Positions 13,202-58,551 of a stretch of DNA of 64,000 bases are shown piece by piece; the first letter of the stretch is position 1, and every line of letters begins with the position of its first letter. The DNA comes from Thiogranum sp. (lineage in GTDB: Bacteria; Pseudomonadota; Gammaproteobacteria; DSM-19610). A program made the position numbers and the translations under genes. The DNA lies in contig JASBSS010000018.1 in NCBI GenBank assembly GCA_030148805.1, positions 184,371 through 248,370 of the forward strand. The letters run 5' to 3'. The notes beneath the pieces were generated by a model that did no database searches, was not told the origin of the DNA, and saw only the letters and a list, made by a program, of their open reading frames with translations.

Positions 13202-13294
13202 ACCTTCCCCGCGCGCATCAAGGCCGCCGGCGGCGGCAAATCCCATCCACAGATTGAAAAGACCGTGGATTTGTGTCAGATTGGCGACCGTTGT

Positions 13295-13370
<76 letters not shown>

Positions 13371-13399
13371 ATCTCATACCAGCCACGTTACAGGCCCGC

Positions 13400-14857
13400 A
13401 TTACGAATACCCGCGAAAGCCCAGCCTGGGAGCTGGCTCTGCCCGAACTGCGGGTGGATCTGATCAATGCGCAGTACGAGCTGCAATCCGCCGGATTTCC
13501 GGTCCTGGTGCTGATTGGCGCCGACGACCGGCTGGCCGCGGACGACCTGATCGACACCCTGAACGAATGGATGGACGCCCGCTATATCGATACCCGCTGG
13601 TTTGGACCGCGGCGGCCGGAGGAACGCGCCTACCCGCCCTTCTGGCGCTACTGGCGGGAACTGCCGGCGAGCGGACGCATTGGCCTGTTCGCCAGCGCGT
13701 GGGCGACCCATCCGGTCAGCGAAAGGGTGTTCGGCCAACTCAGCGCGGCGGACTTCCAACGACGGCTGGAGCACATCAGACAGCTGGAAAAGGCGCTGGT
13801 GGAAGACGGGACGTTGCTGCTCAAGTTCTGGCTGCATCTGCCCGCCGACGAGCAACGCAGACGCGCCCGCGCGGCGCACAAGCACAAAGACAAATACTGG
13901 AAATTCGATGAAGAGGACAGGAGGGCCTATCAGGTCCTCGACCGGGCCCTGCCATTGTGCCGGCAACTCATCGAGGCGACCGACACCGAAGACTGCCCCT
14001 GGCAGTTGGTAACCACCAGCGATCGACGCCAGGCCAACTTTTCCATCGCCAGCGCGTTGCTGGCCTCGCTCCGCCAGCGGCTCGGGCGGACGCCGGAAGA
14101 GACCATCGCGCCCCCTGCACAACCCACAATCCCCAGCGCGGGAAAAAGCCCCCTGGATAGCGTGAATTTGACCGCGCGCCTGGACTATGCCGCCTACAAG
14201 TCAAAGCTGCTCAAGCAACAACGTAAAATCCGCCGCCGCTCGGCCAAGGCCGCGCGGCGTGGACTGAGCAGCGTGCTGGTGTTCGAAGGTTGGGACGCGG
14301 CTGGCAAGGGGGGCGCCATCCGCCGCCTGACCCGGGCGATGTCGGCGCGCCACTATCGGGTGATCCCCATTTCCGCGCCCAGCGACGAGGAATTGGCGCA
14401 TCATTATCTTTGGCGCTTCTGGCGCCGGCTGCCGCGCGCCGGCGGTCTGGTGATTTTCGACCGCAGTTGGTACGGTCGGGTCCTGGTCGAACGGGTTGAA
14501 GGGCTCGCCAGCGAAGCCGCCTGGCGGCGCGCCTATCAGGAAATCAACGATTTCGAAGCGCAATTGGTTGAAAGCGGGATCAATCTGCAGAAATTCTGGC
14601 TGCATCTGGACGCCGACGAGCAACTGAGGCGTTTTCAAGCGCGCGAACAGACCCCCTATAAAAAGTACAAAATCACTACGGAAGATTACCGCAATCGGAG
14701 CAAGCGGGAACAATATGTGCATGCCATCAACGACATGATTGCACAGACCTCGACGCCAGCGACCCCATGGCATTTGATTCCGGCAAACGACAAACGCTGG
14801 GCGCGGGTGCGTATCGCGCGCGAGGTCAGCCGCGGCTTGAAGCGGCAACTGAGCTGA
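13400..14857 (+). CDS. pap: Two-domain PPK2 polyphosphate:AMP phosphotransferase
   Basis: About 485 residues made of two PPK2 domains, the class II architecture that phosphorylates AMP to ADP with polyphosphate. The second domain (from about residue 275) is intact: Walker A GWDAAGKGG, then APSDEELAHHYLWRFW and the Walker B-type FDRSWYGR. The first domain keeps the fold (WMDARYIDTRWFG, KFWLHL) but its Walker A position reads GADDRLAADD, so it cannot bind nucleotide normally; a catalytically silent first domain is known in this class. The open frame runs back through the tRNA; I place the start after it. ATT 13400 is used here; GTG 13454 is the other option and is the nearest conventional start codon. 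Confidence 0.85.
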   Translation: MTNTRESPAWELALPELRVDLINAQYELQSAGFPVLVLIGADDRLAADDLIDTLNEWMDARYIDTRWFGPRRPEERAYPPFWRYWRELPASGRIGLFASAWATHPVSERVFGQLSAADFQRRLEHIRQLEKALVEDGTLLLKFWLHLPADEQRRRARAAHKHKDKYWKFDEEDRRAYQVLDRALPLCRQLIEATDTEDCPWQLVTTSDRRQANFSIASALLASLRQRLGRTPEETIAPPAQPTIPSAGKSPLDSVNLTARLDYAAYKSKLLKQQRKIRRRSAKAARRGLSSVLVFEGWDAAGKGGAIRRLTRAMSARHYRVIPISAPSDEELAHHYLWRFWRRLPRAGGLVIFDRSWYGRVLVERVEGLASEAAWRRAYQEINDFEAQLVESGINLQKFWLHLDADEQLRRFQAREQTPYKKYKITTEDYRNRSKREQYVHAINDMIAQTSTPATPWHLIPANDKRWARVRIAREVSRGLKRQLS

Positions 14858-19150: not shown

Positions 19151-20533
19151 TCAATACTGCAACTGCTGGAGTATCCCCTGCGCCAGCACGCCAATCAATA
19201 GCGTGGCGAGGAAACCCACCAACCACACGATCGTGGCGAATTTTCCGCCGGTGGGTGTGGAACCCCCGGCCTCGCCGACCGGGCGATACATCGGCACTAT
19301 GATGCGAAGATACACCGCCAAGGACAACACACTGTTGATGATGCCGATCACCGCCAGCCACAGATAGCCGGCCTCTATCGAGGCACCGAACAACAGGAAC
19401 TTCGCGGCAAACCCCGCCAGGGGTGGAATCCCGGTCAAGGAAAACAGAAAGGTGCTCATCGCGACCCCCGTCCAAAGGCGCCGACGACCCAGACCACGCA
19501 GCTCCTCGCGGGAGGTTCCCGCCTGAGTGACGATGGCGAAGGCGCCCAGATTCATCGCGCTGTAAGCTGCGGCGAAGACCACCAATGCCGGCAGAGCCAG
19601 GGTGCTCGCCGTCAGCGCGATAACAGCCAACAGAAAATATCCCGCCTGAGCGACCGACGAGTAGGCCAGGAGACGCACGACATTTTCCTGCACCAGCGCC
19701 GCCAGATACGCAACCGTCATGGTCACGGCCGCCACCAGTGCGAGGATTCCCTGCCAGCCGCTGCTCTCGGGCAGCTCGGTTACCACCTGTGCCAGCGCGA
19801 ACAAAGCGCCGATTTTCGGCACCACCGACAAGTAGGCGGCGACACTCACCGGCGCGCCCTCGTAGGCATCCGGCGCCCAGAAATGAAACGGCACCAGCGA
19901 GGCTTTGTAGCCCAGGCCCACCAGCACGCCGACCAGTCCCAGGGCCGCGGCATACGGTGCCTGCTGTAAACCGCCAAGCGCGCCGAGCAGGGTGGTGCCG
20001 GTTATGCCGAACCAGTAGCTGAGGCCGAATATCATCACCGCGCCGCAGACCGATGCATAGATAAGGAATTTCATCGCCGCTTCTGTCGCCCGTGCGTCGC
20101 GCGGCCAGGCCACCAGGGCGAAGCCGGCCAGCCCCGAGAGCAGCAGCCCCAGCACCAAAAGCATCGTGTCGCCACTGCCCGCCAGAATCAGGGCGCCGAA
20201 GGTGCTGAAGCAAAGCAGGCTGTAGACCGTGCCCTCGCGCGGGCTGGCGGCCAGCTCACCGCGCGCCAGCAAGGCCGCGAGCAGCGTCGCCGGCAACAAC
20301 ACCAGCTTGGCCCACACGCTCAGCGCGTTGACGCGGTAGGTTCCGTCGAACACCGAGCTGTCGTGACCCAGCAGCGGCACGCTCAGCACGCTCGCCAACA
20401 ACAGCCCTGCCAGCACGACGACAAAGCCGGCACGCGGGCGGCGCAACATCTCGCACACCAGTGAGGCCACCGCCGTCAGCAGCAATACGATTTCCGGCCA
20501 CATCAGGGCCAGGTCGTGCGCCATCTCCTGCAT
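19151..20533 (-). CDS. nuoN: NuoN-like proton-pumping subunit of a complex I-like enzyme
   Basis: 460 residues, all membrane helices. Antiporter-type (Mrp/NuoL/M/N) fold with the channel lysines in YKASLVPFHFWAPDAYEGAP and the LLAYSSVAQAGYFL helix; the acidic residue of TM5 is less clear. NuoN sits next to NuoK in the membrane arm and carries a proton channel. Last of the large subunits in this operon, after nuoM by 54 bases. Confidence 0.9.
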   Translation of the reverse strand: MQEMAHDLALMWPEIVLLLTAVASLVCEMLRRPRAGFVVVLAGLLLASVLSVPLLGHDSSVFDGTYRVNALSVWAKLVLLPATLLAALLARGELAASPREGTVYSLLCFSTFGALILAGSGDTMLLVLGLLLSGLAGFALVAWPRDARATEAAMKFLIYASVCGAVMIFGLSYWFGITGTTLLGALGGLQQAPYAAALGLVGVLVGLGYKASLVPFHFWAPDAYEGAPVSVAAYLSVVPKIGALFALAQVVTELPESSGWQGILALVAAVTMTVAYLAALVQENVVRLLAYSSVAQAGYFLLAVIALTASTLALPALVVFAAAYSAMNLGAFAIVTQAGTSREELRGLGRRRLWTGVAMSTFLFSLTGIPPLAGFAAKFLLFGASIEAGYLWLAVIGIINSVLSLAVYLRIIVPMYRPVGEAGGSTPTGGKFATIVWLVGFLATLLIGVLAQGILQQLQY

Positions 20534-20587
20534 CGTTCAGTCTGCCTCCGGGTCGGCGCTAAAGGGACAAAGAAAAGACATGGGCGC

Positions 20588-22057
20588 TCAAAAACTCAGC
20601 GTACTGGTAGTGCGATGAATCACCTGCAGCACCCAGGCCGGCGCCACGCCGAGCGCGACAATCAACAGCGTCAACGGCGTCAGCACCAAAAGCTCGCGCG
20701 TCCCCAGGTCCGGCATTCGCTCCCATTGGGCAGGCAGTGGCCCCAGGAACACCTTGCCGATGGCGCGCAGGTACAGACCCGCGGTCACGACGATGCCGAG
20801 CACCACCACCGCTGCCGCGGGCGCCACGCCCAGGGTGGCGAGGAATATCTGAAACTCCGCCGGAAAATGCGCCAGCCCCGGCAAACCGAGGGAGGCAAAA
20901 GCCGCCAGAATGAAAAACCAGCCCAGCCTCGGAACTTGTTGAAGCAGACCGCCGAAGCGCTCCATTTCGCGGGTGTTGGCCCGCTCTTGCAGGCTGCCCA
21001 CCAGAAAGAACAGCGCCCCGGTCACCAGGCCGTGGCTGACCATCTGCAGCACCGATCCATCCAGCGCCAGCGTGCGCAGCGCCGGATCGGCGGCGAGCGC
21101 GGCGGCGGCCACGCCCACAATGATATAACCCATGTGGTTGACCGAAGTGTAGGCGACGAGACGCTTGAGGTCGGTCTGCGCCAGGGCGACAAACGCGCCG
21201 TAAAGCGCGCTGAGTACGCCCACGACCATCACCACCCAGGCCGCTGCGCGCATGGCCTCAGGGGTCATTTGCAGGGCAAAGCGTATCAACCCATAGGTGC
21301 CGAACTTGAGCATCACGCCCGCGAGAACGACACTTCCCGCGGCGGGGGCCTGCACGTGGGCGGCCGGCAACCAGGTGTGGAAGGGGAAAACCGGCGTCTT
21401 CACCGCAAAGGTAAACAGCATGGCCGCCAAGGCCCACATGGCGGCGCTCCCGCTCAACGGCGGCTGCGCGATCCAGGCCCGCATATCGAAAGTGGAAACC
21501 TCCGCGCCAAGGTAGAACGCGAGAATGGCGAGCAGCAGCGGCAGGCTGCCCAACAGGGTATAGAGGAAAAACATCAGCGCCGCCCGCTGGCGGTCCTCGT
21601 GCCCCCAACCTGCGATGAGAAAATACATCGACACCAGGGACACCTCGAAAAACACATAAAACAGCAAGGCGTCCAAAGCCAGGAAGACGCCGAGCGAGGC
21701 GGTCTCGAGCAGCAGCATCAACACCACATAGGCGTGGGGTCGTTCGCGCACGCGGACCGAGTAGATCAGCGTGAGCAGAAACAACGCGGCGGTGAGCAGC
21801 ACCAGGGGCAGACTGATTCCGTCGACGCCGACACGATAGCTGGCCCCGATCGCCGGCATCCAGTCAATCTGCTCCACCTGGGAAAACCCATCCGCTTGCA
21901 CCCCCCTCACCCACATCCACAGCGTGCCTGCCAGGGTCAATGTGGCGGTGCCTATCCCCAGGGCGTGAACCATCGGAGCGCGCGCCCTGGGCATGGCGAG
22001 GATGACAGCGGCGCCCAACAGCGGCATGAACAAGCTCAAGGAAACCAGCGGAAACAC
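20588..22057 (-). CDS. nuoM: NuoM-like proton-pumping subunit
   Basis: 489 residues, about 14 membrane helices. The key charged positions of NuoM are present: Glu in FFEVSLVSMYFLI, Lys in FAVKTPVFPFHTWLP, and Lys in GVMLKFGTYGL; also AQTDLKRLVAYTSVNHMGY. The proton path therefore looks functional. Lies 32 bases after nuoL in the operon. Only one nuoM is present. Confidence 0.93.
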   Translation of the reverse strand: MFPLVSLSLFMPLLGAAVILAMPRARAPMVHALGIGTATLTLAGTLWMWVRGVQADGFSQVEQIDWMPAIGASYRVGVDGISLPLVLLTAALFLLTLIYSVRVRERPHAYVVLMLLLETASLGVFLALDALLFYVFFEVSLVSMYFLIAGWGHEDRQRAALMFFLYTLLGSLPLLLAILAFYLGAEVSTFDMRAWIAQPPLSGSAAMWALAAMLFTFAVKTPVFPFHTWLPAAHVQAPAAGSVVLAGVMLKFGTYGLIRFALQMTPEAMRAAAWVVMVVGVLSALYGAFVALAQTDLKRLVAYTSVNHMGYIIVGVAAAALAADPALRTLALDGSVLQMVSHGLVTGALFFLVGSLQERANTREMERFGGLLQQVPRLGWFFILAAFASLGLPGLAHFPAEFQIFLATLGVAPAAAVVVLGIVVTAGLYLRAIGKVFLGPLPAQWERMPDLGTRELLVLTPLTLLIVALGVAPAWVLQVIHRTTSTLSF

Positions 22058-22089
22058 GTTCTATTCTCCTTTGTCAGTCGCCGCGCAGG

Positions 22090-23925
22090 TCAAGGCGCGG
22101 CACCCGGGCCGACCCACCAGCCCAGTGCGGCCAGTACCCCAAGCATCAACGCACCTGCGGCCGTCGTCAGCGCCAGCTCGCGGTGCACCAGACCGCTGTG
22201 CAGGCCCCGCAGGCGCACCCCCAGGGTCCGGCTGGCGTGCGCCAGGGCTAAAATCAGCCGATCGATGACACCTTCGTCACCGCAGCGAGTGACACGGCCA
22301 ACCAACAGCCCCATACGGCCTATGGCCAGCACCGTCGCATACAACAGATCTTCGAGACGTTGGCACCGCCGCGCCAGCCCCAGGGCCGGATGCACCACCC
22401 AGTGGGTCATGCCTCCGGAGATGGCGAAACCCTGCCGCGCCCAACGCCACAGCGGCCCCGACAGACGCTTGCCGCCGAGCCAGCCGCCGAGCAACAAACC
22501 GCTGAGTGCCGCCCCCAGACCCATGACGCTGGCCAGGGTGCTTTCCGGGGGTACGCTTTCGAGCAGGGACTCGATAGCGGAGAAATACAGTTTCAGGGTC
22601 GCGGCGAAAAGCACCAGTCCGGCCAGGCCCGAGCCCATCCACACCAGGCCGGCAAGTCGGTGCGGCCGGGCTTCCCCGCGCCACAGGAGCCGCAACGCCC
22701 GCGCCATATAAGCGCCCGTCAGCAGGGTACCGGCCAGCGCCAACCCGCCCAGCAGTCCGGGATGGGGCGAAACCAGAGTCGCGGCAATGACTGCGTCCTT
22801 GGAGAAATAACCGCTCAATGGCGGGATGCCGGCAAGCGCCAGTGCGGCAAGGGCGAAACCGCCATAGGTGGCCTTGCGCTCCCGCCCTACGCCCCGCAAC
22901 GCCTTAAACTCGGTGGATTCGCGGCTGTGTTGAAACACACCGGCGGCGAGAAACAGCGCGCTTTTTATCGCCGCGTGAGCGATCAAATGCAGCAGCGCCG
23001 CCACGGGCGCACCCGCGCCCACCGCGATCAGCATCAGCCCGTACTGACTGGAAGTCGAGGCGGCCAACAGGCGTTTGAGATCGGTTTCCGCCAACGCGAT
23101 AAGACCGGTGACCACCGTAGTGACACCGCCGACCAGCGCCACCAGCAGCAGGATCTCATCAGGCAGCAACGGCGCGCTGCGGATCAACAAAATCGCGCCG
23201 GCGGCCACCAGGGTGGCCGAGTGCAGCAAGGCGGAAACCGGCGTCGGCCCCGCCATCGCCCGCTGCAACCAATCGTGAAGCGGTGTCTGCGCCGATTTGC
23301 CCATCGCCGCCAGCAGCAGCATCAGGCCGACGAACGGCGCGGCAGCGCCTGCGTGTTGCAGACTGGTGGCGATTTCACTGCTGCCACTGGCTAGAATCAG
23401 CGCGAAAGCCGCCAGGTACAGTCCCATATCGGCGCTGCGCGTATAAAGAAACGCACGGTTGGCGGCCGCCGCCACGCCGGGACGCTGATACCAGAATCCG
23501 ATCAGCAGATAACTGCTCAGACCGATCAGCTCCCAGGCAGCCAGCAGCAACAACCAGTCGGCGGCCAGCACCAAAGCCTGCATGGCGGCGATGAAAAAAC
23601 ACAGGATGGAAAAAAAACGCGACCGCTGCGGATCGTCCCGAGAATAGCCGACCGCGTACAGCACGACAAAGAACGCCACGCCGGCGACCACCAGCGACAA
23701 CAGCGCCTGCAACGGTTCCCCACCGAGTCGCAGCGGCATGGCGGGCAGGCCAGGGAGTGTCAGTTCAGGCGCCGCGCCAGCGGCGACCGCCACCAGCAGC
23801 CAGACACTAGCCGCCAGGCCCGCGGCCACGCTCAGCAATGCCAGCACCGCCGGTGCCCGGTTGAGCAAGCCAATCGAAAGAGCACCGGCGAGCGGGATGA
23901 GGGTGACCCATGCCAGCGGATTCAT
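22090..23925 (-). CDS. nuoL: NuoL-like proton-pumping subunit
   Basis: 611 residues. Conserved NuoL features: Glu in LLAAWELIGLSSYLLIGFWY, Lys in GKSAQTPLHDWL, the AMAGPTPVSALLHSATLVAAG helix and DLKRLLAASTSSQ. About 16 helices with a C-terminal extension that could be the lateral HL helix. Residue conservation supports working proton transfer. Start overlaps the nuoK stop by 4 bases. Confidence 0.93.
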   Translation of the reverse strand: MNPLAWVTLIPLAGALSIGLLNRAPAVLALLSVAAGLAASVWLLVAVAAGAAPELTLPGLPAMPLRLGGEPLQALLSLVVAGVAFFVVLYAVGYSRDDPQRSRFFSILCFFIAAMQALVLAADWLLLLAAWELIGLSSYLLIGFWYQRPGVAAAANRAFLYTRSADMGLYLAAFALILASGSSEIATSLQHAGAAAPFVGLMLLLAAMGKSAQTPLHDWLQRAMAGPTPVSALLHSATLVAAGAILLIRSAPLLPDEILLLVALVGGVTTVVTGLIALAETDLKRLLAASTSSQYGLMLIAVGAGAPVAALLHLIAHAAIKSALFLAAGVFQHSRESTEFKALRGVGRERKATYGGFALAALALAGIPPLSGYFSKDAVIAATLVSPHPGLLGGLALAGTLLTGAYMARALRLLWRGEARPHRLAGLVWMGSGLAGLVLFAATLKLYFSAIESLLESVPPESTLASVMGLGAALSGLLLGGWLGGKRLSGPLWRWARQGFAISGGMTHWVVHPALGLARRCQRLEDLLYATVLAIGRMGLLVGRVTRCGDEGVIDRLILALAHASRTLGVRLRGLHSGLVHRELALTTAAGALMLGVLAALGWWVGPGAAP

Positions 23926-24233
23926 CCCTTGAGCTCCCGCGCCTCTTCCATCTCGACCGAACCACGGGTGCGAAAGCGGGCGGTAGCCACCGCGAACCCG
24001 ACAGCCATCTCCAGCGCCATCACCGTCATCACGATCAACACGAACATCTGACCGGCATAGCTCTCGGCATGCAAAAACCGCCAGAACGCCACCAGGTTGA
24101 CCAGCGCACCGGCCAGTATCAGCTCGATGCCCATCATCAACATCACCAGGTTGGTCTGTGACAACACGCCATACAGACCGACGCCGAACAACGCGGCTCC
24201 CGTGAGCAGGGCCAGTAACAGCTCAGGATTCAT
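23922..24233 (-). CDS. nuoK: NuoK-like subunit
   Basis: 103 residues from MNPELLLALLTG. Three helices; the two buried glutamates of NuoK that form part of the central axis are kept, in MGIELILAG and MALEMAVGFA. Unusual C-terminal tail RTRGSVEMEEARELKG. ATG 24233 is preferred to 24242 because it matches the family N-terminus; it overlaps the nuoJ stop. Confidence 0.93.
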   Translation of the reverse strand: MNPELLLALLTGAALFGVGLYGVLSQTNLVMLMMGIELILAGALVNLVAFWRFLHAESYAGQMFVLIVMTVMALEMAVGFAVATARFRTRGSVEMEEARELKG

Positions 24234-24747
24234 GCGAGCCACCCTGCTCGGGAACCTTTACCGCCACCGCCGTGGCGGCGATCATGGCGGTAAGAATGGT
24301 GATCCCCGCGGTCTCGAAAACGAGCATGGAACGCCCCAACAGTTCGCGACCCAACTGGCGGATCTGCTCGTCCGCCGCGGCCGCCTCGGTCGCGCTCGCC
24401 AGTCCCTCCCACTGGGTATAGGCGGCGATCCCCGTCACCAGGACCACGCCGCCCAGGCCAGCGAGGAGGGACAGCCGCTTCTGATGGCTCATGTCCATAC
24501 CGCCGAGCCCCCCCGGGTCCATCATGAACATCACCATGAAAATCGCCATGATGCTCATCTCCGTGGCCATCATCATGATCTGTAGCACGCCGAGGAATTC
24601 CGCCTGCATCGCCAGGAACAGCGCACCGAGAGCGGTCTGGGAGAACAGCAGCGCAAGGGCCGAGCGCATCATCGACGAGGTACGAAACACGCCCACGGCG
24701 AAAACCACCGCCGCGAGTCCGAAAAAGCCGATGAAAAACGTTTGCAT
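24223..24747 (-). CDS. nuoJ: NuoJ-like subunit
   Basis: 174 residues from MQTFFIGFFGLAAVVFAVGV. Family segment QAEFLGVLQIMMMATEMSIMAIF aligns (in two parts) with NuoJ AEFVAVIQVLVYAGAIVVLF, although the YAGA bulge that forms the pi-helix is replaced by MATE. A longer in-frame start upstream lies inside nuoH and is rejected. Start and nuoH stop overlap as TGATG. Confidence 0.9.
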   Translation of the reverse strand: MQTFFIGFFGLAAVVFAVGVFRTSSMMRSALALLFSQTALGALFLAMQAEFLGVLQIMMMATEMSIMAIFMVMFMMDPGGLGGMDMSHQKRLSLLAGLGGVVLVTGIAAYTQWEGLASATEAAAADEQIRQLGRELLGRSMLVFETAGITILTAMIAATAVAVKVPEQGGSHES

Positions 24748-25643
24748 CACAACCCCGCCAACACCATCACGCCGACGACAAAGATGTTGAGCAGCGCCAA
24801 CGGAATGCCCAGCTTCCAGCACCAGGCCAGCAGCTGCTCTTCGCGCAGCCGCGGCAGGTAATAGCCCGCCAGCAACATCGACGCGGCGACCGCCAGCACC
24901 TTGGTCGCCCCCCACGCCCAGGGCGGCAACCAGGGCCCCTGCCATCCGCCGAGGTAGAAGACGGTCGTGGCCGCGGCCAAAGAGACCACCAGCACCATAC
25001 GTCCCAGCCGCAGTACCGCCAGGCGCGCGCCGGTATACTCCGCCTCCACGCCGGCGGCGAGCTCACCGGCGGCAATGGGTCGATCAAAAGGCGGCAGAAA
25101 GCAAACCGCCAGACTGGCGATATAAAACAGCACGAAACCCAGTGGCTGGTAGAAGATGTTCCACCAGCCTTCCTGGGAGACCACAATGACCGTGGTCAGC
25201 AGGGATTCGGCGCGTATCGCCACCGCCGTGATCGGCATCACGATCAACATGGAATAGGCGATCACCTGCCCCAGAAAACGCCAGCCCGCCACCATGGCGT
25301 AGGCACCATCCGGACCCCAGCCGGCCATCAGCAGCGCCACCAGCACATAAGCCAGCGCCGCATTGACAAACAGGGCGCCGCTGGCCAGGTCGACCAGCAC
25401 CAGCGTCGGCGACAAGGGCAAAACAGCCGCCGCCAGCAGTCCCGCCGACAACAACAGGACCGGCGCGGTTTCGAACAACAGGCGGTCGGGTTTGCGCGCC
25501 ACCACCGATTCGCGCGCCAGCAGCGCGATGCCGGCCAACAGCGGCGCGGCCGGGGCGAAGCTTCCGCGCGTCAGCCGGTCTTCCAGCAACGCCACGGCGT
25601 AGATACCGGCCAGCAGACCCAGGCCCAATAGCACCGCGTTCAC
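24747..25643 (-). CDS. nuoH: NuoH-like subunit with altered quinone-site region
   Basis: 298 residues, somewhat short. The central loop PFDRPIAAGELAAGVEAEYTG corresponds to the NuoH PFDxPEAExELVAGYxTEYSG motif and is kept in outline. However the first cytoplasmic loop, which normally carries RxGPNRVG next to the quinone chamber, reads EDRLTRGSFAPAAPLL and lacks GPNRVG. NuoH joins the peripheral and membrane arms in normal complex I. The loss fits the degenerate partner encoded upstream. Confidence 0.88.
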   Translation of the reverse strand: MNAVLLGLGLLAGIYAVALLEDRLTRGSFAPAAPLLAGIALLARESVVARKPDRLLFETAPVLLLSAGLLAAAVLPLSPTLVLVDLASGALFVNAALAYVLVALLMAGWGPDGAYAMVAGWRFLGQVIAYSMLIVMPITAVAIRAESLLTTVIVVSQEGWWNIFYQPLGFVLFYIASLAVCFLPPFDRPIAAGELAAGVEAEYTGARLAVLRLGRMVLVVSLAAATTVFYLGGWQGPWLPPWAWGATKVLAVAASMLLAGYYLPRLREEQLLAWCWKLGIPLALLNIFVVGVMVLAGL

Positions 25644-27364
25644 GAGGCACTCCCCCAGGGAGACAGATCCAAGGAACAGACGCAGGTGAGCGCATCGCCC
25701 AACTCCTGCTGTCGCAGCAGATGCGGCAACTGACCCAGCAGCGCCCGCGATGGCGGCTGGAGCTTGACGGCGGTCACGCGCCCCCCGCTGGCGGTGAGGT
25801 GCAGGCGCGCCTCCCCGCGCGGCGTCTCCACGACCGCCGTTGCCTCGCCGGCGTACGCTTCGGACGGCGTGCCTGGCGGAAAAGGATTTGCGTCGCTGTG
25901 CTCCTGAGACCTTGTGGCCGCGACCAGCGCCACACTCTGGCGCAGCTCATCCAGTCGCAGACAGAGCCGCTGCCAGGCGTCCGCGCCCTCCCGGCACAAT
26001 GGCTCGAACGCCAGCTCACCGTAGGCCGGATCCTGAGTGCGCGCGTCGATGGGCATGGCGCAGGCGCGCGCCACGGGACCGCGCAGACTCGCCTGTTGCG
26101 CCATCACGCCGAGCCCGGACAAACGCGCCCGGAGCAGGCGATTGCGCCGCACTTGCCTCTCCAGGCGCGCCAGCGCTTTGTCCAACACCCTGAGATCGGT
26201 CGCCGCGCCGCGCAGACAGGCGAGCTGCAGCTGCCGCGCGCGCTGTTGCAGCCAGCCGAAACCCGTCTGGCACCCCAACAGGGCCAGCCAACCCAGGTGA
26301 CTGGCCACGCGCTCGCGCTCGAGCAACGCGACGCAGCGGCGCGCGCTGGGCATAGGCACCGTCGCACCAAGCGCCGCGAGGGCACGCAGCGCCAACAGCC
26401 GATAGGAGACGGGCGTCAAAGGGTCCAAAGCCGAGACGGCTCGCAACAGATCCCCGCTGGCGAATCCGCCCTCCGGAGGCCGCAAACAGGCAGCCGGTAT
26501 CGTCTCCGCCTTCACCCCGGCCACGCTGTCGCCGTCCAGCGTGAGGGTCAGCGACAGTCCGCCCGGCAGCCCGGGGAACAGCGGTCCAAAGGGCACCTCG
26601 ATCCAGTCCATGGGGAGACCGTCCGGACTGCGCGGGAGGTCTTTGGTGACATTGACCATCGACATGAACGACATGCCGCCGTGTCCCTCGTGTCCCTCGT
26701 GTCCCTCGTGTCCCTCGTGTCCCTCGTGTCCCTCGTGATTCTCGTGATTCTCGTGATTCTCGTGATTCTCGTGATTCTCGTGACTCCCGTGACTCCCGTG
26801 ACTCCCGTGACTCCCGTGACTCCCGTGACTCCCGTGACTCCCGTGACTCCCGTGACGGCCGTTATCGCCCTCGCCATGATCCGGCTGATGGCGGCCATCA
26901 GACTCACCCGCGTCATCCCCTTCGCCGTCGGACGCCGAATCCGGCATCAGTAGTGGCGCGCAGAAGGTCTCGACCTGCTGCTGATAGCCGTGCCGGCAAA
27001 ACCAAGCGCGCAACTGCCCGAGCCCATTGAGCAAGCCGCTCTGCGACAAACCGGCTTGCGCTCCGATTGGCAACCCTGCCGGCGCGGTCTCGCCGAGCAG
27101 CAGACACCCCCGTGGACGCATCATCTGCGCATAGGAGACCAGGGCCGCATCCGCCAACGCCGCAGGCAGTTCACCGACAATCAGCAGCACGTTGGCATGC
27201 CGCGGCGTGGCCGCCAGGCGCAATCCCGCGGCGCCAAGTTCCAGACCGTAAGCCGCGGCCACGTCGGGCCCGGGAATTACCAGTGCACACAGATCACGCG
27301 CCGTGGCGCGCAGCAACCATTGCCCCATTCCCTGCCATCGTCCCTGACGCGCGCCGTAACTCAC
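25640..27364 (-). CDS. NuoB-NuoD-like fusion with histidine-rich repeat linker, no Fe-S or quinone ligands
   Basis: 574 residues from GTG 27364. Residues about 1-135 align with NuoB (GLRLAATPRHANVLLIVGE against the NuoB xLRASPRQADVMxVAGT stretch) but all four cysteines for cluster N2 are missing: the CC pair, the GTC position (GEL here) and PGCPP. Residues about 170-230 are 8 GSH, 5 ENH and 6 EGH triplets. Residues about 231-574 resemble NuoD (VPFGPLFPGLPGGLSLTL against GPQHPSTHGVLRL), with the quinone-ligand His lost. A C-terminal stretch VVETPRGEARLHL resembles NuoD EAPRGEFGVYL. No NuoC-like domain is seen. It abuts nuoA and overlaps nuoH by 4 bases. The family relationship is clear by pattern; the function is unknown. 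Confidence 0.8.
   Translation of the reverse strand: MSYGARQGRWQGMGQWLLRATARDLCALVIPGPDVAAAYGLELGAAGLRLAATPRHANVLLIVGELPAALADAALVSYAQMMRPRGCLLLGETAPAGLPIGAQAGLSQSGLLNGLGQLRAWFCRHGYQQQVETFCAPLLMPDSASDGEGDDAGESDGRHQPDHGEGDNGRHGSHGSHGSHGSHGSHGSHGSHGSHENHENHENHENHENHEGHEGHEGHEGHEGHEGHGGMSFMSMVNVTKDLPRSPDGLPMDWIEVPFGPLFPGLPGGLSLTLTLDGDSVAGVKAETIPAACLRPPEGGFASGDLLRAVSALDPLTPVSYRLLALRALAALGATVPMPSARRCVALLERERVASHLGWLALLGCQTGFGWLQQRARQLQLACLRGAATDLRVLDKALARLERQVRRNRLLRARLSGLGVMAQQASLRGPVARACAMPIDARTQDPAYGELAFEPLCREGADAWQRLCLRLDELRQSVALVAATRSQEHSDANPFPPGTPSEAYAGEATAVVETPRGEARLHLTASGGRVTAVKLQPPSRALLGQLPHLLRQQELGDALTCVCSLDLSPWGSAS
26681..26851 (-). repeat. In-frame 9-bp minisatellite encoding a His-rich linker (19 units)
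   Basis: On the plus strand there are 6 copies of GTGTCCCTC, then 5 of GTGATTCTC, then 8 of GTGACTCCC, with no interruptions. Read on the minus strand they encode GSH x8, ENH x5 and EGH x6. Each block is identical at the base level, which suggests recent slippage copying. Because units are 9 bp, gain or loss keeps the frame and only changes linker length. One histidine occurs every three residues, a pattern found in metal-binding proteins. Confidence 0.97.
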
Positions 27365-27727
27365 TTAGTGTCTCCGCAACGCGCCCTGGCTCCAGCCATA
27401 GAGCAAACCGAGAAACAAGATAGCCAGAAATACCCCCATATCCAGTAGCGCCACCAGCCCTTCCTCCTTGAACACCACGGCCCAGGGATACATGTAAGCC
27501 ATCTCCATATCGAAGGCGAGAAACAGCAACGCGTAACCCAGATAGTGCGCGTGATAGCGCACCCAGGCGGGCTCTACGCTCAGGCGCCCCGAGGTCGCGG
27601 GGACGTTTTTTCCCGCTTCCTCGCGCGTGCGACCGAGAGCACGGGCAAAGGCGTACAGGCTAAGCGTCAGGCCGATCGCTCCGATCAGCAACGCGAACAG
27701 GACAAGGTACTGTTGCAGGGCACTCAT
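27365..27727 (-). CDS. nuoA: NuoA-like subunit
   Basis: 120 residues from MSALQQYLVLFALL; ATG 27727 has a GGGAG site 7 bases away, so the longer frame to 27775 is rejected. FDMEMAYMYPWAVVF matches the NuoA FDVExxYLYPWAV motif with its glutamate. The loop that usually reads YESGxxP is altered to ATSGRLSVEP. First gene of the complex I-like operon, directly next to the fusion gene (stop and GTG start adjacent). Confidence 0.92.
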   Translation of the reverse strand: MSALQQYLVLFALLIGAIGLTLSLYAFARALGRTREEAGKNVPATSGRLSVEPAWVRYHAHYLGYALLFLAFDMEMAYMYPWAVVFKEEGLVALLDMGVFLAILFLGLLYGWSQGALRRH

Positions 27728-27975: not shown

Positions 27976-28311
27976 TCAGATATGCGAGACCAAGCGCACG
28001 TCGGGAATGCTGACGCGCAGCGCTTCCGTGATCTCGAAGCGAATACCGGTGACCGGACGAATGGATACCCAAAGCAGATTCAGCGCCAGATTCAACTCCG
28101 CGAACACCACCTGGTCACCGAAGCGCGACAGGATGGCGTGGATGTCCTGCATCGTCTGCTGGATACGCAGTTGCGGTCGCAGACGCAACCCGGGGATGAT
28201 GAGCATGAAGTCCGACAGCGCCTTGCCGTTCTCGTCCACAATGGGCGCGCGCTTACGCAACGGCTCGGTGGCGTCCAGCAAAGGAAACAACGACACGCGT
28301 GGCAGGTTCAT
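27976..28311 (-). CDS. Conserved-looking 111-residue protein of unknown function
   Basis: Starts MNLPRVSLFPLLDATEPL and contains DFMLIIPGLRLRP, a helix QQTMQDIHAILSRFGDQVVFAELNLALNLLWVSI (written here in parts: QQTMQDIHAIL, then VVFAELNLALNLLWVSI) and ends VSIPDVRLVSHI. No membrane helix, Cys motif or signal peptide. The mixture of residues reads as a real folded alpha/beta protein rather than a GC-rich shadow, and the competing plus-strand frame is Arg/Gln rich. It lies upstream of nuoA on the same strand, so it could belong to that operon. I do not recognise the family. Confidence 0.65.
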   Translation of the reverse strand: MNLPRVSLFPLLDATEPLRKRAPIVDENGKALSDFMLIIPGLRLRPQLRIQQTMQDIHAILSRFGDQVVFAELNLALNLLWVSIRPVTGIRFEITEALRVSIPDVRLVSHI

Positions 28312-28518: not shown

Positions 28519-29181
28519 ATGACTTCAGCCCGCGAAATCAAAGACACGCTCTATCAACAGGTGGCCCGAGTGGGCAAGGCGTTGTCGAGTCCCAAGCGCC
28601 TTGAGCTGGTCGAACTGCTGTGCCAGGGAGAGATGCACGTCGAACAACTGGCCACCGAGGCGGGCATCAGCCTGAAGCTCGCCAGTGCGCATTTAAAGGA
28701 ACTGCGCTTGGCACAGCTGGTTGCCCTGCGGCGCGACGGCAGAAGGGTGTTCTATTCCTTGGTGGACGACCAGGTGGCCGATCTTTGGGTGGCCCTGCGT
28801 GCCTGCGCCGAAAACCGGCTGCTGGAATTGCGCAGCGCGCTGGGCGAAGTCGTCTCCCACCCGCACGAACTCTCGCCGCTCAACGGCAAGTCATTGCTCA
28901 ACCAGGCCCGGCGCGGCGAGCTGACGGTGATCGACGTACGCCCGGCGAATGAATACGCGCAGGCTCATCTACCCTATGCGCGCAGTATGCCGCTCGCTGA
29001 GCTCAAGCAGCGGCTCGACGAACTCCCCCCCGATCGGCCGGTGGTCGCCTATTGCCGCGGGCCTTTCTGTCTGCTGGCAAAAGACGCGGTCACGCTGCTG
29101 GCACAGGCCGGCGTGAACGCCACCAGGCTGGAAGACGGGGTGGCGGAATGGCGCGCACGCGGCTTACCGCTGGCGCAGTGA
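28519..29181 (+). CDS. ArsR-family repressor fused to a rhodanese domain (sulfide/persulfide sensor candidate)
   Basis: 220 residues. Winged-helix ArsR domain (about 10-100) with EAGISLKLASAHLKELRLA; two cysteines, Cys35 in ELLCQGE and Cys96 in LRACAEN, sit where the BigR/SqrR redox pair is found. The C-terminal rhodanese domain (about 122-218) has IDVRPANEYAQAH and the active-site loop CRGPFC (Cys179 as nucleophile). Such a fusion could take sulfane sulfur on the rhodanese and release DNA through the Cys pair. First gene of an operon with a persulfide dioxygenase and an MFS transporter. Confidence 0.9.
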   Translation: MTSAREIKDTLYQQVARVGKALSSPKRLELVELLCQGEMHVEQLATEAGISLKLASAHLKELRLAQLVALRRDGRRVFYSLVDDQVADLWVALRACAENRLLELRSALGEVVSHPHELSPLNGKSLLNQARRGELTVIDVRPANEYAQAHLPYARSMPLAELKQRLDELPPDRPVVAYCRGPFCLLAKDAVTLLAQAGVNATRLEDGVAEWRARGLPLAQ

Positions 29182-29217
29182 CCATCACAAGACGCGACGA
29201 ATCCTGCGGAGGTCTTT

Positions 29218-29961
29218 ATGTTCTTCAAACAAATGGCAGCGGAAAACGCCACGCTTTCTTATCTTTTTGGCTGCGGCGGCAAGGGTAAAGCGGTAGCGGT
29301 GGATGTGGCGCGCGGCGACGAAACGCGTTTCATCGAGGAGGCGTCACGGCAGAACGTGACCATCACCCACGTCATCGACACCCACGTGCACGCCGATCAT
29401 TATTCCGGCGGACGCCAACTGGCGGAGAAGGTCGGCGCGCCCTACTGTCTGCACGAACACATGCAGGGGCGGACCGGTTTCGCCTTCGCGGCGCTGCGCG
29501 ACGGCGATGTCATCGATGTCGGCAACGTCAAGATAGAGGTGATGCACACGCCGGGGCACACCCTGGACAGTATCTGTCTGCTGGTCACCGACCGGCGCCG
29601 GGGCGAGGCGCCCTGGTTCGTCATCACTGGCGACAGCCTGTTTGTCGGCGCCATCGGGCGCCCCGATCTCGCCGGAAAGGAACGCGAGATGGCGGCGCAG
29701 CTCTATGACAGTCTGCACCAACGCCTGCTGACCCTGCCCGACGAGGTGGAGATCTTTCCCGGGCACCAGGCGGGCAGCGTCTGTGGCGCCGGACTGTCGG
29801 GCAAACCCTCTTCCACGCTCGGTTTCGAGAAACGCTGGAATCCGGCCTTGTCGCTGAGCAAAGAGGCGTTCATCGAGCAGCTCACCGCCGAGATACCGCC
29901 GCGACCGGCGGAAATGGACCGTATCGTGGCGGCCAATCTCGGCCTTACCGAGGCCGGCTAG
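29218..29961 (+). CDS. Metallo-beta-lactamase fold persulfide dioxygenase (ETHE1/Blh-like)
   Basis: 247 residues. Motif THVHADH (His56, His58, Asp60, His61), His114 in TPGHT, Asp139 in TGDSLF and His183 in PGH. ETHE1-type enzymes oxidise glutathione persulfide to sulfite with one iron held by two His and one Asp; His56, His114 and Asp139 would be the ligands. The GDSLFVGAIGRPDL stretch is characteristic of the ETHE1/Blh branch rather than glyoxalase II. Co-operonic with the sulfide-type repressor, which supports the role. Confidence 0.88.
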   Translation: MFFKQMAAENATLSYLFGCGGKGKAVAVDVARGDETRFIEEASRQNVTITHVIDTHVHADHYSGGRQLAEKVGAPYCLHEHMQGRTGFAFAALRDGDVIDVGNVKIEVMHTPGHTLDSICLLVTDRRRGEAPWFVITGDSLFVGAIGRPDLAGKEREMAAQLYDSLHQRLLTLPDEVEIFPGHQAGSVCGAGLSGKPSSTLGFEKRWNPALSLSKEAFIEQLTAEIPPRPAEMDRIVAANLGLTEAG

Positions 29962-53421: not shown

Positions 53422-54249
53422 TTACAATTCCCGCCGCTGAAACAGCGCCATGGTGGTGGCCAGCGGAACCACAACCCACAACGTCATCAGACCCAGCAAC
53501 AGCGACACGGCGAAACCGGAACGCGCGGCTACACCCGCGATCCCGGCGGCCTGCCCGACGCTATCGAAGGCCGTCAGGTTCAATATCCTGTAGGTGTCGG
53601 TGGGGCTCGCGAGCATCAACGCCGAGAACAAGCCTGGCCCTATCTGTTGGGCATGATCGGCAAGCAGCACTCCCAGCAGGGCAAGATCGTAGAGGACCAC
53701 GACGATCAGCCACAACACCACCGCCGCGCCGGCGGCCGTGCTACGTTCGCGCACCAGCACGCTTATCAGGTAACCCAGCGCGATAAACGCCGCGCCGAGC
53801 AGCAGCGAGCTGCTCATCATGGTGAGGTAAGCCTGCCAACCCGCTGTGCCGCTGTCGCTAACCAGCACCGTAAAGAGCGCCGCGGCGCCGTAACCCACGG
53901 CGACAGCCGTCAGCAGGATCATCATATGACCGAAGAACTTACCCAGCACCACCTGCCAGCGCGCCACCGGGTAAGTCAGCAGCAGCAACATCGTGCCGCG
54001 CTCGAACTCACCGACCAGCGCGTCGAACGAAAGCAGTAGGGCGATCAGCGGCACCAGGTAGACGCTCAGGCTGGTGAGGCTGACAACACTGATCTCCAGG
54101 GCGCCGGCGCCAACCGTGCCGGTCGGCGCGGAACCCACCAGCAACAGCGCCAGCGCGGTGCCCCCCAGGAGCATGATGGCGGCCGCGACCCAGCGGTTGC
54201 GCAGACCGTCGAGATATTCGTTTACCGCCAATATCCATAGCGCGTTCAT
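53422..54249 (-). CDS. nosY: NosY, ABC permease of the Nos maturation complex
   Basis: 275 residues with about six membrane helices; start WILAVNEYLDGLRNRWV is typical of NosY. With NosF and NosD it forms the NosDFY complex for CuZ site assembly. Overlaps nosF by 4 bases. Confidence 0.94.
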   Translation of the reverse strand: MNALWILAVNEYLDGLRNRWVAAAIMLLGGTALALLLVGSAPTGTVGAGALEISVVSLTSLSVYLVPLIALLLSFDALVGEFERGTMLLLLTYPVARWQVVLGKFFGHMMILLTAVAVGYGAAALFTVLVSDSGTAGWQAYLTMMSSSLLLGAAFIALGYLISVLVRERSTAAGAAVVLWLIVVVLYDLALLGVLLADHAQQIGPGLFSALMLASPTDTYRILNLTAFDSVGQAAGIAGVAARSGFAVSLLLGLMTLWVVVPLATTMALFQRREL

Positions 54250-55181
54250 TGCGGCTGCACGTTCTCCATGTAGTGGCTATAGATATCATCGAGCCGCGGC
54301 GGCATGACATCCACGTCTTCGACGACCTCGCCAAGAGCGGCGATTTGCCGCAGCACCACCATCTTGGAAGCCCCGAGGCAGAACAGGTCGATGCGGTGCT
54401 CATCGCGCCTGTGTATTTTCCCCATTGCGGCGAGGCTCTCGGCCACCCGCGCCCCACTCCCGGACCTCACCCCGAGTCTGACCACAATCGGCAAACCGGC
54501 CTGCCGGGATAACTCGGCCTGCGTGCCGCAGGCGACAATGGCGCCCATTTTCATGATCGCGATGCGATCGGCGCGCGCCTCGACTTCGTTCAGCGAATGC
54601 GACGAGGTCAGCGAGGTGGTGCCTGAACGGCTCAGCGTGTCGATCAGGCCATAGAAGTGCCTGCGCAGCGAGGGGTCCAGTCCGCTGGTCGGCTCGTCCA
54701 GAAACAGCAGTTGCGGCTTGCCAAGCATCGCCTGGGCGAGACCGAGACGCTGCCGCATGCCCTTGGAGTAGGTGCGCACCGGCCGGTCGGCAGCCCTGTC
54801 GAGGCCGACTTGCTCGAATATCGAACGGCACTCGGCCGGCGCGATACCCTTGAGCCGTGCATAAAACGCCAGCACTTCACGGCCCTTCATGGCGCTGTGA
54901 AAAGCGACACTCTCGGGAAGATAGCCGAGTGCGCGGCGTCGCCCGGCGCCGGCCGTCGCCGGGTCGGCGCCGAGCACGCGCACCCGCCCCGCGCTGGGAC
55001 GGGTCAGACCCAACATCAGTTTCATCAACGTCGTCTTGCCGGCGCCGTTGTGCCCGATCAGCACCATATGCTCGCCGGCTCGAACCGACAGGTCGACATC
55101 GCGCACTACGGTTTTGTCACCATAGCGCTTGACCGCGCCCGCCACGTCGATGACCTTTTCCACGGCCGCCGCGTTAACCAT
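54246..55181 (-). CDS. nosF: NosF, ABC ATPase of the Nos maturation complex
   Basis: 311 residues. Walker A GHNGAGKTT, signature YSKGM and Walker B LLFLDEPTSGLD. ATP hydrolysis powers NosDFY. Overlaps nosD by 8 bases and nosY by 4. Confidence 0.95.
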   Translation of the reverse strand: MVNAAAVEKVIDVAGAVKRYGDKTVVRDVDLSVRAGEHMVLIGHNGAGKTTLMKLMLGLTRPSAGRVRVLGADPATAGAGRRRALGYLPESVAFHSAMKGREVLAFYARLKGIAPAECRSIFEQVGLDRAADRPVRTYSKGMRQRLGLAQAMLGKPQLLFLDEPTSGLDPSLRRHFYGLIDTLSRSGTTSLTSSHSLNEVEARADRIAIMKMGAIVACGTQAELSRQAGLPIVVRLGVRSGSGARVAESLAAMGKIHRRDEHRIDLFCLGASKMVVLRQIAALGEVVEDVDVMPPRLDDIYSHYMENVQPQ

Positions 55182-56469
55182 GCCGGGGCTCGTGCTGCAC
55201 GGGCACGCGCATCAGCGGTGCGCTGTCGGTCACGCCACCCGGATGCAAAGACGGAAACTCGGACTGCGCCCAGCGGAGCACCTGCACGGCCGGACTGTTG
55301 AGCAGCAGTTTTGCCAGGGGATGCGCCCAGACAATTTGGTCGACCAGGTCGTTGGGGCGGTAAGGCCGATCCGCGATGCCGTCGTCATCGAGATCGAACG
55401 CCGGGTTGTCGCTCCAGTAGTTGCCGCGCCCGTTCAGCGACCATTCGATATAGCGCGTGCCGACATATTTTACCTGCGTGCGGTTGTTGACGAAGGCATT
55501 TGCATAGACCTCGTTGCGTTCAGAGCCGGCGGTAAAATGGATCCCGATCCGGCAATCGGCAAAATAGTTGTCGTGAATACGGTTGACGTTGGCGTTGTAG
55601 ATGAACAGACATTTTTCCGCCCCCCCGGTGACGCGATTGCCCACGATCTCGGAGTGATTGGCATAGTTCAGAAACAGCCCCCGGTCACGGTCACCCACCG
55701 AAACATTAGCGCTCACCTTTAGCCGGTGGGAATACATCAATGCAAAACCGACGTGGTTGCCCATCGAGCGGTTAGCGCTGACCTCGCTGTCATTGGTATA
55801 CATGTAGTGAATCGCAAAACGCAGGTCCCGCAAGCGATTACCGAGAAACCGGTTATTCCGGCTGGTGGTGACGAAGATACCGTCGCGCCCGTAGCGGATG
55901 TCATTGTCTTCGACCACGGAACCTGGGGAATTCCACAACTGCACACCATTGCCGCGGTCGTTTACGTGCGGATTGGTACTGCCGATGATGTCGTTGCCGC
56001 GCACCCGCGCATTCTCCGGTCCCTTGAGATATACACCAATCAGATTGCCGCGCAGGTGGTTGCCTTCGATTACGGCGCCGTCACCCTCAGCCGTGACGAA
56101 TATGGCGCTGTCCTCGGTGGCCAGACTGTCACCGGAATTGCGCACCGTAACCCCGCGCACGACCACCTTGGGCGCGGCCACGGTTATGACCCGCCCCACA
56201 CCCTGCCCATCGATAACACTGGCCGCGGTGCCGATCAGCTCAACCGAGCGGTCGATGACCACCGCTCCCGCATAAAGCCCCGGCCCAAGCAGGAGCCGAT
56301 CACCGGCACCGGCCTTCTCAATGGCGCTCTGCAACGAACCGGCGCCCGGTGGTACCACCCGGTCGCCGGCGCACGCCGAGGAGAGCAGACCGAGCGCCAG
56401 GATAAACAGGAACCCGCCGGTCAGACACCAACCGAACGGCGGGCGCCGGTATACCGCGCTACACGGCAA
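55174..56469 (-). CDS. nosD: NosD, periplasmic beta-helix protein
   Basis: 431 residues from TTG 56469, or up to 456 from 56544. NosD is a parallel beta-helix that docks on NosFY and helps insert copper. Repeats such as RGNDIIGSTNP, NRFLGNRL and MYTNDSEVSANRSMG are the carbohydrate/NosD (CASH-type) helix turns. No ATG lies near the signal peptide FLFILALGLLSSACA; the chosen TTG lies after the nosZ stop, while the longer frame would overlap nosZ by 60 bases. Confidence 0.88.
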   Translation of the reverse strand: MPCSAVYRRPPFGWCLTGGFLFILALGLLSSACAGDRVVPPGAGSLQSAIEKAGAGDRLLLGPGLYAGAVVIDRSVELIGTAASVIDGQGVGRVITVAAPKVVVRGVTVRNSGDSLATEDSAIFVTAEGDGAVIEGNHLRGNLIGVYLKGPENARVRGNDIIGSTNPHVNDRGNGVQLWNSPGSVVEDNDIRYGRDGIFVTTSRNNRFLGNRLRDLRFAIHYMYTNDSEVSANRSMGNHVGFALMYSHRLKVSANVSVGDRDRGLFLNYANHSEIVGNRVTGGAEKCLFIYNANVNRIHDNYFADCRIGIHFTAGSERNEVYANAFVNNRTQVKYVGTRYIEWSLNGRGNYWSDNPAFDLDDDGIADRPYRPNDLVDQIVWAHPLAKLLLNSPAVQVLRWAQSEFPSLHPGGVTDSAPLMRVPVQHEPRHG

Positions 56470-56483
56470 AGAGCGGCGCCAGC

Positions 56484-58400: not shown

Positions 58401-58448
58401 CTATCTCCTCTTGATATAAGGGAAGCTCTGATTACTTTGTATTCCGTC

Positions 58449-58508
58449 ATTCCGGCGTAAGCCGGAATCCAGGGGGCTCAATAACCTGGCTACCGGCCTG
58501 CGCCGGTA
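58449..58508. repeat. REP-like palindromic element between nosR and nosZ
   Basis: Two hairpins: ATTCCGGC-gtaa-GCCGGAAT (58449-58468) and TACCGGC-ctgc-GCCGGTA (58491-58508). A further GGCCGGTATGAC follows at 58521-58534. The GTCATTCCGGCGxAAGCCGGAAT core is a common extragenic repeat type in proteobacteria. It lies inside the nos transcript and may protect RNA or reduce read-through. Confidence 0.82.
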
Positions 58509-58551
58509 TGACGCATCGATAGGCCGGTATGACAAATTGACCAGAGTTTTC

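Follow-up and report, generated by a model that had tools for sequence, protein, structure and literature searches.

What becomes of a relative of respiratory complex I that has kept the parts conducting protons and lost the parts carrying electrons? The question is raised by an eight-gene operon of Thiogranum sp. (Gammaproteobacteria; assembly GCA_030148805.1), found at 19151-27727 on the minus strand of a 64,000-nucleotide stretch of contig JASBSS010000018.1 (positions 184,371 to 248,370). We refer to this whole stretch as the window, and unqualified coordinates are positions within it. The genes run in the order nuoA, a NuoB-NuoD-like fusion, nuoH, J, K, L, M and N. Electron-carrying parts have been lost, metal-binding and methionine-rich parts have been gained, and relatives often have copper-resistance genes as neighbours; taken together, these observations suggest that the proton gradient is likely used to move copper across the membrane. 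We consider a non-redox role in copper handling very probable, and put the more specific reading, that the operon encodes an exporter of Cu(I)/Ag(I) which is derived from complex I and driven by protons, at an even chance from the sequence features described below. The features of the window copy are:

27365-27727, minus strand: NuoA-like protein, 120 residues (PF00507, E 1.5e-24)
25640-27364, minus strand: NuoB-NuoD-like fusion, 574 residues
26945-27364, minus strand: NuoB-like part, fusion residues 1-140, without the N2 cysteines (family profile against NDUFS7, E 8.7e-7)
26675-26929, minus strand: His-rich linker, fusion residues ~146-230, encoded by 9-base tandem repeats
26657-26668, minus strand: FMSM motif, fusion residues 233-236, ahead of the NuoD-like part
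25643-26617, minus strand: NuoD-like part, fusion residues 250-574, with the GPxHP His, the second His and the quinone-site Tyr all substituted
24747-25643, minus strand: NuoH-like protein without the canonical QRxGP loop (PF00146, E 1.3e-52)
24223-24750, minus strand: NuoJ-like protein, 9.7% Met (PF00499, E 3e-21)
24520-24594, minus strand: third transmembrane helix (TM3) of NuoJ, residues 53-77, with bounds from a low-confidence model
23922-24242, minus strand: NuoK-like protein with family-specific Met34, 66, 72, 75 and 79 (PF00420, E 1.4e-18)
22090-23925, minus strand: NuoL-like proton-channel subunit (PF00361, E 2.4e-56)
20588-22057, minus strand: NuoM-like proton-channel subunit (TIGR01972, E 6e-148, over its cut-off)
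19151-20533, minus strand: NuoN-like proton-channel subunit (TIGR01770, E 1.3e-83, under its cut-off)

An earlier reading of this stretch (the original prediction) had described an operon with nuoA, H, J, K, L, M and N and without nuoC, E, F, G and I, and profiles and tblastn confirm that description. Searches in which the canonical NuoB, C, E, F, G and I of the same assembly served as queries found no match in the window, and no intact nuoB, nuoC or nuoI lies beside the operon there. Relatives were collected by scanning one genome per species, of which 149 encode one, and the best 80 loci were analysed. NuoC, E, F and G were found in 0/80 of these, and NuoI in a single locus, L097, where additional copies of H, J, L, M and N accompany it; the same procedure detected B, C, E, F, G and I each in 26-29 of 29 canonical control stretches. 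The likeness of the fusion to NuoB and NuoD, a further claim of the original prediction, holds as well: profiles back both halves and structure backs the NuoD half, whose closest match in a search of the PDB is MbhL of a group 4 hydrogenase (6cfw, E 1.1e-29).

The predicted loss of the ligands of the N2 cluster and of the GPxHP His extends from the window copy to 191 fusions, the other 190 of which include 186 distinct sequences. No Cys column exceeds 12% in the NuoB-like part, the frequent Cys columns belonging to the insert between the halves, and the one common Cys column of the NuoD half (66%, position 326) is occupied by Leu in the window copy. The GPxHP His is replaced by Phe in 186/191 fusions, the second NuoD His by Pro in 190/191 and the Tyr by Pro in 174/191, all three being residues that we take to form part of the quinone site; the GPxHP pattern is retained in 1/190. 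NuoH lacks the canonical quinone-side loop across 68 family rows, as had been proposed for the window copy. Retention of the key channel residues of L, M and K is likewise borne out by alignment: NuoL keeps Glu132, Lys210, Lys321, Lys376 and Asp377, NuoM keeps Glu138, Lys220, Lys251 and Glu401, and NuoK keeps both channel glutamates (Glu40 and Glu78), to which NuoN adds Lys210, Lys240 and Lys378. As judged from residues and gene content, the electron path is lost in nearly all members, and the proton-channel Glu and Lys of L, M and N are retained together with the two NuoK glutamates.

The insert is where metal ligands have been gained. With the fusion as query, 684 relatives reached E 0.001 or better in a protein search, and of the 120 listed among them, 115 carry the heavy-metal-binding domain (HMBD) PF19335 between the halves. 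By motif, one to ten copies of the HMBD core occur in 171/195 fusions, with 24 lacking it (this set includes a few duplicates), and in the family profile the insert segment matches the Cu-ATPases 8ovl and 3rfu (E ~1e-6). The window fusion is without an HMBD; in its place stands a 91-residue linker with 22 His, derived from 9-base tandem repeats. What is visible here is the ligands themselves, and we place them in the cytoplasm by analogy with complex I. Ahead of the NuoD half, the FMSM motif is present in 191/191 fusions.

Methionine has been gained within the membrane as well, chiefly in NuoJ and NuoK. Against canonical sequences from fusion-bearing genomes (only 8 canonical NuoJ from 16 genomes; sequences beyond the set length limits or unrecognised by BLAST were dropped), the median Met content of NuoJ is 9.3% (57 family sequences) versus 3.95% (8 canonical), and that of NuoK is 8.7% (62 family sequences) versus 3.96% (11 canonical); the medians of L, M, N and A lie below canonical and that of H equals it. 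Conserved Met columns gained and lost number 15 and 2 in NuoJ, 8 and 2 in NuoK, 4 and 1 in NuoA, 6 and 3 in NuoH, 1 and 8 in NuoL, 9 and 10 in NuoM, and 4 and 8 in NuoN, where one of the gains in A and one in K are the start Met. About half of the columns gained in NuoJ lie in TM3, where the canonical Tyr is Met in the family; in the window copy this helix holds Met59, 60, 61, 65, 68, 72, 74, 76 and 77, of which only Met74 is canonical too. A bulge in NuoJ TM3 gates the E-channel in complex I, according to the portion available of a study of that enzyme (PMC10212512). The NuoK methionines gather around the conserved Glu78 and those of NuoA around Asp73 and Glu75, canonical residues that the window NuoA keeps, with the family-specific Met74, Met76 and Met79 beside them; these NuoA columns stand at 1.00 in 70 family rows versus 0-0.2 in 13 canonical rows. 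Both J and K are more conserved in the family than in the canonical set. NuoJ is the least conserved membrane subunit of the canonical set (55.1%; N 55.5%) and reaches 77.2% in gammaproteobacterial members, the largest shift among the seven subunits. These methionines (NuoJ TM3, NuoK TM2/TM3 and the NuoA helix) may form a Met ladder, a putative soft-ligand path through the membrane.

Gene neighbourhoods point to copper as the metal. With marker thresholds of our own setting and a mean flank of 8.7 kb in both groups (for the controls, outside an assumed 15.2-kb operon and with downstream extensions included), 28/80 loci and 0/16 canonical control genomes have one or more core copper markers (Fisher p 0.005). 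The markers are Cu-ATPase (16 loci), CopB (11), CsoR (9), CopA oxidase (7), CusA (3) and CusB (3); for Cu-ATPase, the frequency in 17 fusion-bearing genomes predicts about 0.8 loci, the loci not being independent. Marker-positive loci include Rubrobacteraceae, Chloroflexota, Halomonadaceae, Alcanivoracaceae, Marinobacter, Rhodanobacter and Alphaproteobacteria. In Rubrobacteraceae and Chloroflexota, same-strand csoR and Cu-ATPase genes, in some cases with copZ, adjoin the operon: locus L035 reads Cu-ATPase, csoR, the eight genes and a copper oxidase on one strand, and L036 reads csoR, Cu-ATPase, HMA chaperone, operon. On a plasmid of Sulfitobacter faviae the operon is followed by an insertion sequence element and then by genes annotated as multicopper oxidase, CopB, cupredoxin, CueR and heavy-metal ATPase, an arrangement that a Sulfitobacter dubius plasmid resembles. 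At the level of whole genomes, a TIGR01480 copper oxidase over its cut-off is present in 12/13 fusion genomes versus 71/261 others (p 3e-6, kinship not corrected). Generic CueR, MerR and CsoR boxes upstream of nuoA gave nothing above shuffled sequence (0, 0, 0, 0, 2 of 71). The pattern [AT]TA..GGG..GGGTA[AT] has matches in three actinobacterial loci (L032:4668, L040:4383 and L069:9552), ~80-136 bp ahead of nuoA, and this CsoR-operator-like G-tract motif recurs before the Cu-ATPase of L032; because the pattern, which occurs at 9 distinct places in 1.35 Mb, was picked after reading the Rubrobacter upstream sequences, we treat these matches as a lead only.

If these features belong to one machine, the insert (HMBDs, or the His repeats of the window copy) would collect Cu(I) in the cytoplasm and hand it to FMSM at the former quinone chamber, from where the ion would step along the Met ladder of NuoJ TM3, NuoK TM2/TM3 and the NuoA helix, the former E-channel, into the periplasm. 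Inward protons through L, M and N and the retained Glu/Lys axis would supply the drive, the reverse of complex I, in which redox work moves protons outward, and the usual partners (the multicopper oxidase CopA, CopB and cupredoxins) could take over in the periplasm. The metal, the direction, the stoichiometry and the assembly of the eight proteins into one complex are all part of this proposal. It would mean that a whole branch of the complex I superfamily had exchanged redox-driven proton pumping for proton-driven copper pumping, which we think might equally prove right or wrong; our belief in the corresponding conversions, of quinone chamber into copper docking site and of E-channel into methionine ladder, is just as evenly divided. 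Precedents exist for both elements: for CusA, a Met ladder with proton drive has been proposed as the route of Cu(I) (PMC7558416, in the part available), and DAB2 uses a NuoL-like subunit in a non-redox role (PMC13144422, likewise in part).

Several observations weigh against this proposal. Because some fusions have no recognisable HMBD and a few have short linkers poor in His and Met (P0001, for example, has 3 His and 2 Met in 31 residues), the insert is possibly dispensable. NuoM, too, gained 9 conserved Met columns (losing 10), and the Met content of NuoA lies below canonical. The ladder itself is read from sequence, the single-chain model of NuoJ having a pLDDT (predicted local distance difference test) of 61. 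Within the stretches fetched, 52/80 loci have no core copper marker, the 28 kb tested around the operon in the window gave none, and on the plasmids of Paracoccus and Thioclava no named copper gene appears in the flanks shown, which reach up to 15 kb per side. In a second set of fusion windows, partly overlapping with the 80 loci, 2/18 have copper genes, which is indistinguishable from 0/16 controls (p 0.49). The locus counts carry no correction for kinship, and the loci are not independent.

The same sequence facts would apply equally to a copper-gated proton conduit, in which Cu(I), once bound to the insert and to the Met helices, switches the L/M/N channels open or shut, with no metal crossing, so as to adjust membrane potential or pH under copper stress. 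Three full antiporter-like subunits exceed the need of one metal ion, and the canonical Glu/Lys axis is retained, both of which suit a conduit; a gate, however, needs few ligands, and since conserved Met runs along most of NuoJ TM3 and NuoK TM3, a path fits better than a switch. We regard the conduit as unlikely. Neither the ligands nor the sequence fix the cargo and its course: Met cannot tell Cu(I) from Ag(I), and the direction of transport is not readable from sequence, so that the machine might import metal to feed cuproenzymes, or remove Ag or Hg rather than Cu. The window does hold what we take to be a nitrous oxide reductase cluster (nosZ, nosR, nosD, nosF and nosY; 53422-60843), and NosZ is a copper enzyme that needs the metal. 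Nearby copper genes in the family, on the other hand, are those of efflux and detoxification (CsoR, Cu-ATPase, CopA oxidase, CopB and Cus), and import or a different soft metal seems to us quite unlikely.

A redox-driven pump of the Ehr/Mbx type, with its electron partner encoded elsewhere or with Cu(I)/Cu(II) as the electron carrier, would agree with the closeness of the NuoD-like half to MbhL and with the Ehr complexes, which also lack Ni-Fe ligands (PMC6349859, in the part available). The flanks offer this reading a flavin adenine dinucleotide (FAD)-type oxidoreductase in 6/80 loci and, by reading only, a ferredoxin-like open reading frame (ORF) in 2/80. Among identified clusters, however, and copper oxidases aside, no recurrent redox gene is commoner than that oxidoreductase, and the small-subunit Fe-S ligands, the quinone-site residues, the NuoH quinone-side loop and NuoC, E, F and G are all gone, which makes such a pump very unlikely. 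Energy-coupled CO2 hydration of the DAB kind, or another non-metal uptake, would suit Thiogranum as an autotrophic genus. Members also occur in organisms such as Halomonas, Alcanivorax and Rubrobacter, which are mostly heterotrophic, and this counts against it. A NuoL-like subunit can indeed serve non-redox chemistry in DAB (PMC13144422, as far as available), but the operon has no carbonic-anhydrase-like domain, and we hold this explanation to be highly improbable. That the operon is a decaying duplicate of complex I would account for the lost redox parts, but it is already contradicted and has next to no chance of being right: the family groups as a single long-branched clade (support 100/100) distinct from the canonical NuoH of fusion-bearing genomes, the eight-gene set is retained across phyla, J and K are more conserved than in the canonical set, and the fusion reading frame is free of stops in both copies in the assembly.

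Compared with known systems, the operon shares with respiratory complex I its A, H, J, K, L, M and N, the NuoB- and NuoD-like halves and the channel Glu and Lys, and differs in its lack of C, E, F, G and I, of the N2 cysteines, the quinone-site His and Tyr and the NuoH loop, as well as in its fused B and D, metal-binding insert and Met-rich J and K. With the group 4 hydrogenases and Ehr (Mbh, Mbx, Hyf) it has in common a NuoD-like half nearest MbhL, and with Ehr the absence of the N-terminal Ni-Fe CxxC (the MbhL CxxC aligns to a Cys-free stretch, the C-terminal pair falling outside the alignment). It departs from them in a NuoB-like half without Fe-S ligands, in the metal-binding insert, and in having NuoA and the full NuoL/M/N set as in complex I; Ehr has an Fe-S small subunit able to pass electrons, a feature that the fusion lacks. 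Mrp antiporters share antiporter-like and NuoK-like subunits without redox cofactors with the operon, but their subunit set is without NuoH- or NuoD-like parts, whereas the operon has NuoA, NuoH and NuoB/NuoD-like parts. A proposed Met ladder is common to the operon and CusA (HME-RND), and in Cu-ATPases such as CopA (P1B ATPase) it is residues close to the N-terminus that the HMBD segment of relatives matches. Potential Cu(I) ligands in a presumably cytoplasmic domain, as in copper exporters, are present in the family (the HMBD core in most fusions, the His-rich linker in the window), although the membrane folds and energy-coupling parts of CusA and CopA are unrelated to those of the operon. 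DAB2 is likewise non-redox, with a NuoL-like subunit thought to couple protons to other work (PMC13144422, in part), but consists of two subunits, one a carbonic-anhydrase-like partner, and the eight genes hold no such domain.

Because complex I, Ehr, Mrp and DAB each differ from it in at least one tested feature, we regard the operon as new in kind within the wider complex I superfamily. Among the matches listed in the open-access PubMed Central (PMC) literature, no description of the system was found, and in the main text of a genome survey of complex I variants no word starts with copper, metal or Ehr (PMC12361115). The original prediction, which saw in the operon a possible new machine derived from complex I, with a different input or with a role as ion-conducting module, is supported; the metal-binding insert, the Met-rich J and K, the copper genes of relatives and copper as the likely input had no place in it. 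If the proposal is true, this would be the first relative of complex I known to transport a transition metal, and a new class of copper transporter in several phyla, partly on plasmids typed as conjugative. How complex I couples its quinone site to distant proton channels is still debated, and a natural relative with the coupling and channel parts, and a metal site for the redox site, would split that problem in two and make the coupling machinery testable without quinone chemistry. The genes are currently annotated as NADH dehydrogenase subunits or hydrogenase, labels through which genomes may be credited with a second complex I that is not there.

The 80 loci span Gamma-, Beta- and Alphaproteobacteria, Rubrobacteraceae (Actinomycetota), Chloroflexota and one Trueperaceae metagenome-assembled genome. 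The original prediction had proposed looking for the same gene order in relatives and for a complete nuo set elsewhere in the genome, and both searches were productive. All eight genes are present in 58/80 loci, in equal order except for apparent neighbour swaps where ORF starts overlap; the other 22 have at least one gene undetected, mostly at the ends of the fetched stretch. The assembly holds a near-full canonical set on contig C23, running from B to N because the contig begins there and anything ahead of B is missing, and canonical NuoD is also present in 16/17 fusion-bearing genomes tested. In single-genome samples, fusions occur in 13/274 of the class and 3/299 of the phylum (source genome included in both). 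In a tree of NuoH from 22 family and 14 canonical rows, the two groups part with 100/100 support and on long branches, and by this tree the family is an old lineage rather than a recent duplicate.

The operon is plasmid-borne in Paracoccus, Thioclava and two Sulfitobacter, copper genes lying on 2/4 of these plasmids (both Sulfitobacter), and also in Rubrobacter marinus (L069); some of the operon-bearing plasmids are typed as conjugative. On the Rhodobacterales plasmids (L106-L108 and L188), the operon is preceded by a sigma-70 factor gene in 3/4 records, and a gene for a DUF6629 protein and another for a separate subunit annotated as proton-conducting transporter are found near it. Two further gene families (L088:9890-10399 and L089:10334-11608), for which Pfam and NCBIfam give no match, lie near the operon in 12/80 and 10/80 loci, their hosts being Halomonadaceae, Alcanivoracaceae and others.

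Within the source assembly, a second operon copy with a 607-residue fusion lies at C28:184000-203999 (L109). It was first read as a paralogue, but the block around it mirrors the window, with relA, metE, nrdA, nrdB and a counterpart of window 14180-14843, at a nucleotide identity of 69-83%. For this reason the copy may be an orthologue from another species if the bin is mixed, or else part of a large duplication; rpoB, sought to decide between the two, was not found in the assembly. Upstream of the window nuoA lies a short minus-strand ORF (27976-28311) without a Pfam match, with 79% nucleotide identity to sequence beside the C28 copy. Divergent from the operon, an ArsR-rhodanese fusion regulator is followed by a metallo-beta-lactamase-fold protein (28519-29958), possibly sulphur-stress genes. 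On the far side of the operon, a long ORF at 13265-14857 presumably encodes a two-domain polyphosphate kinase 2.

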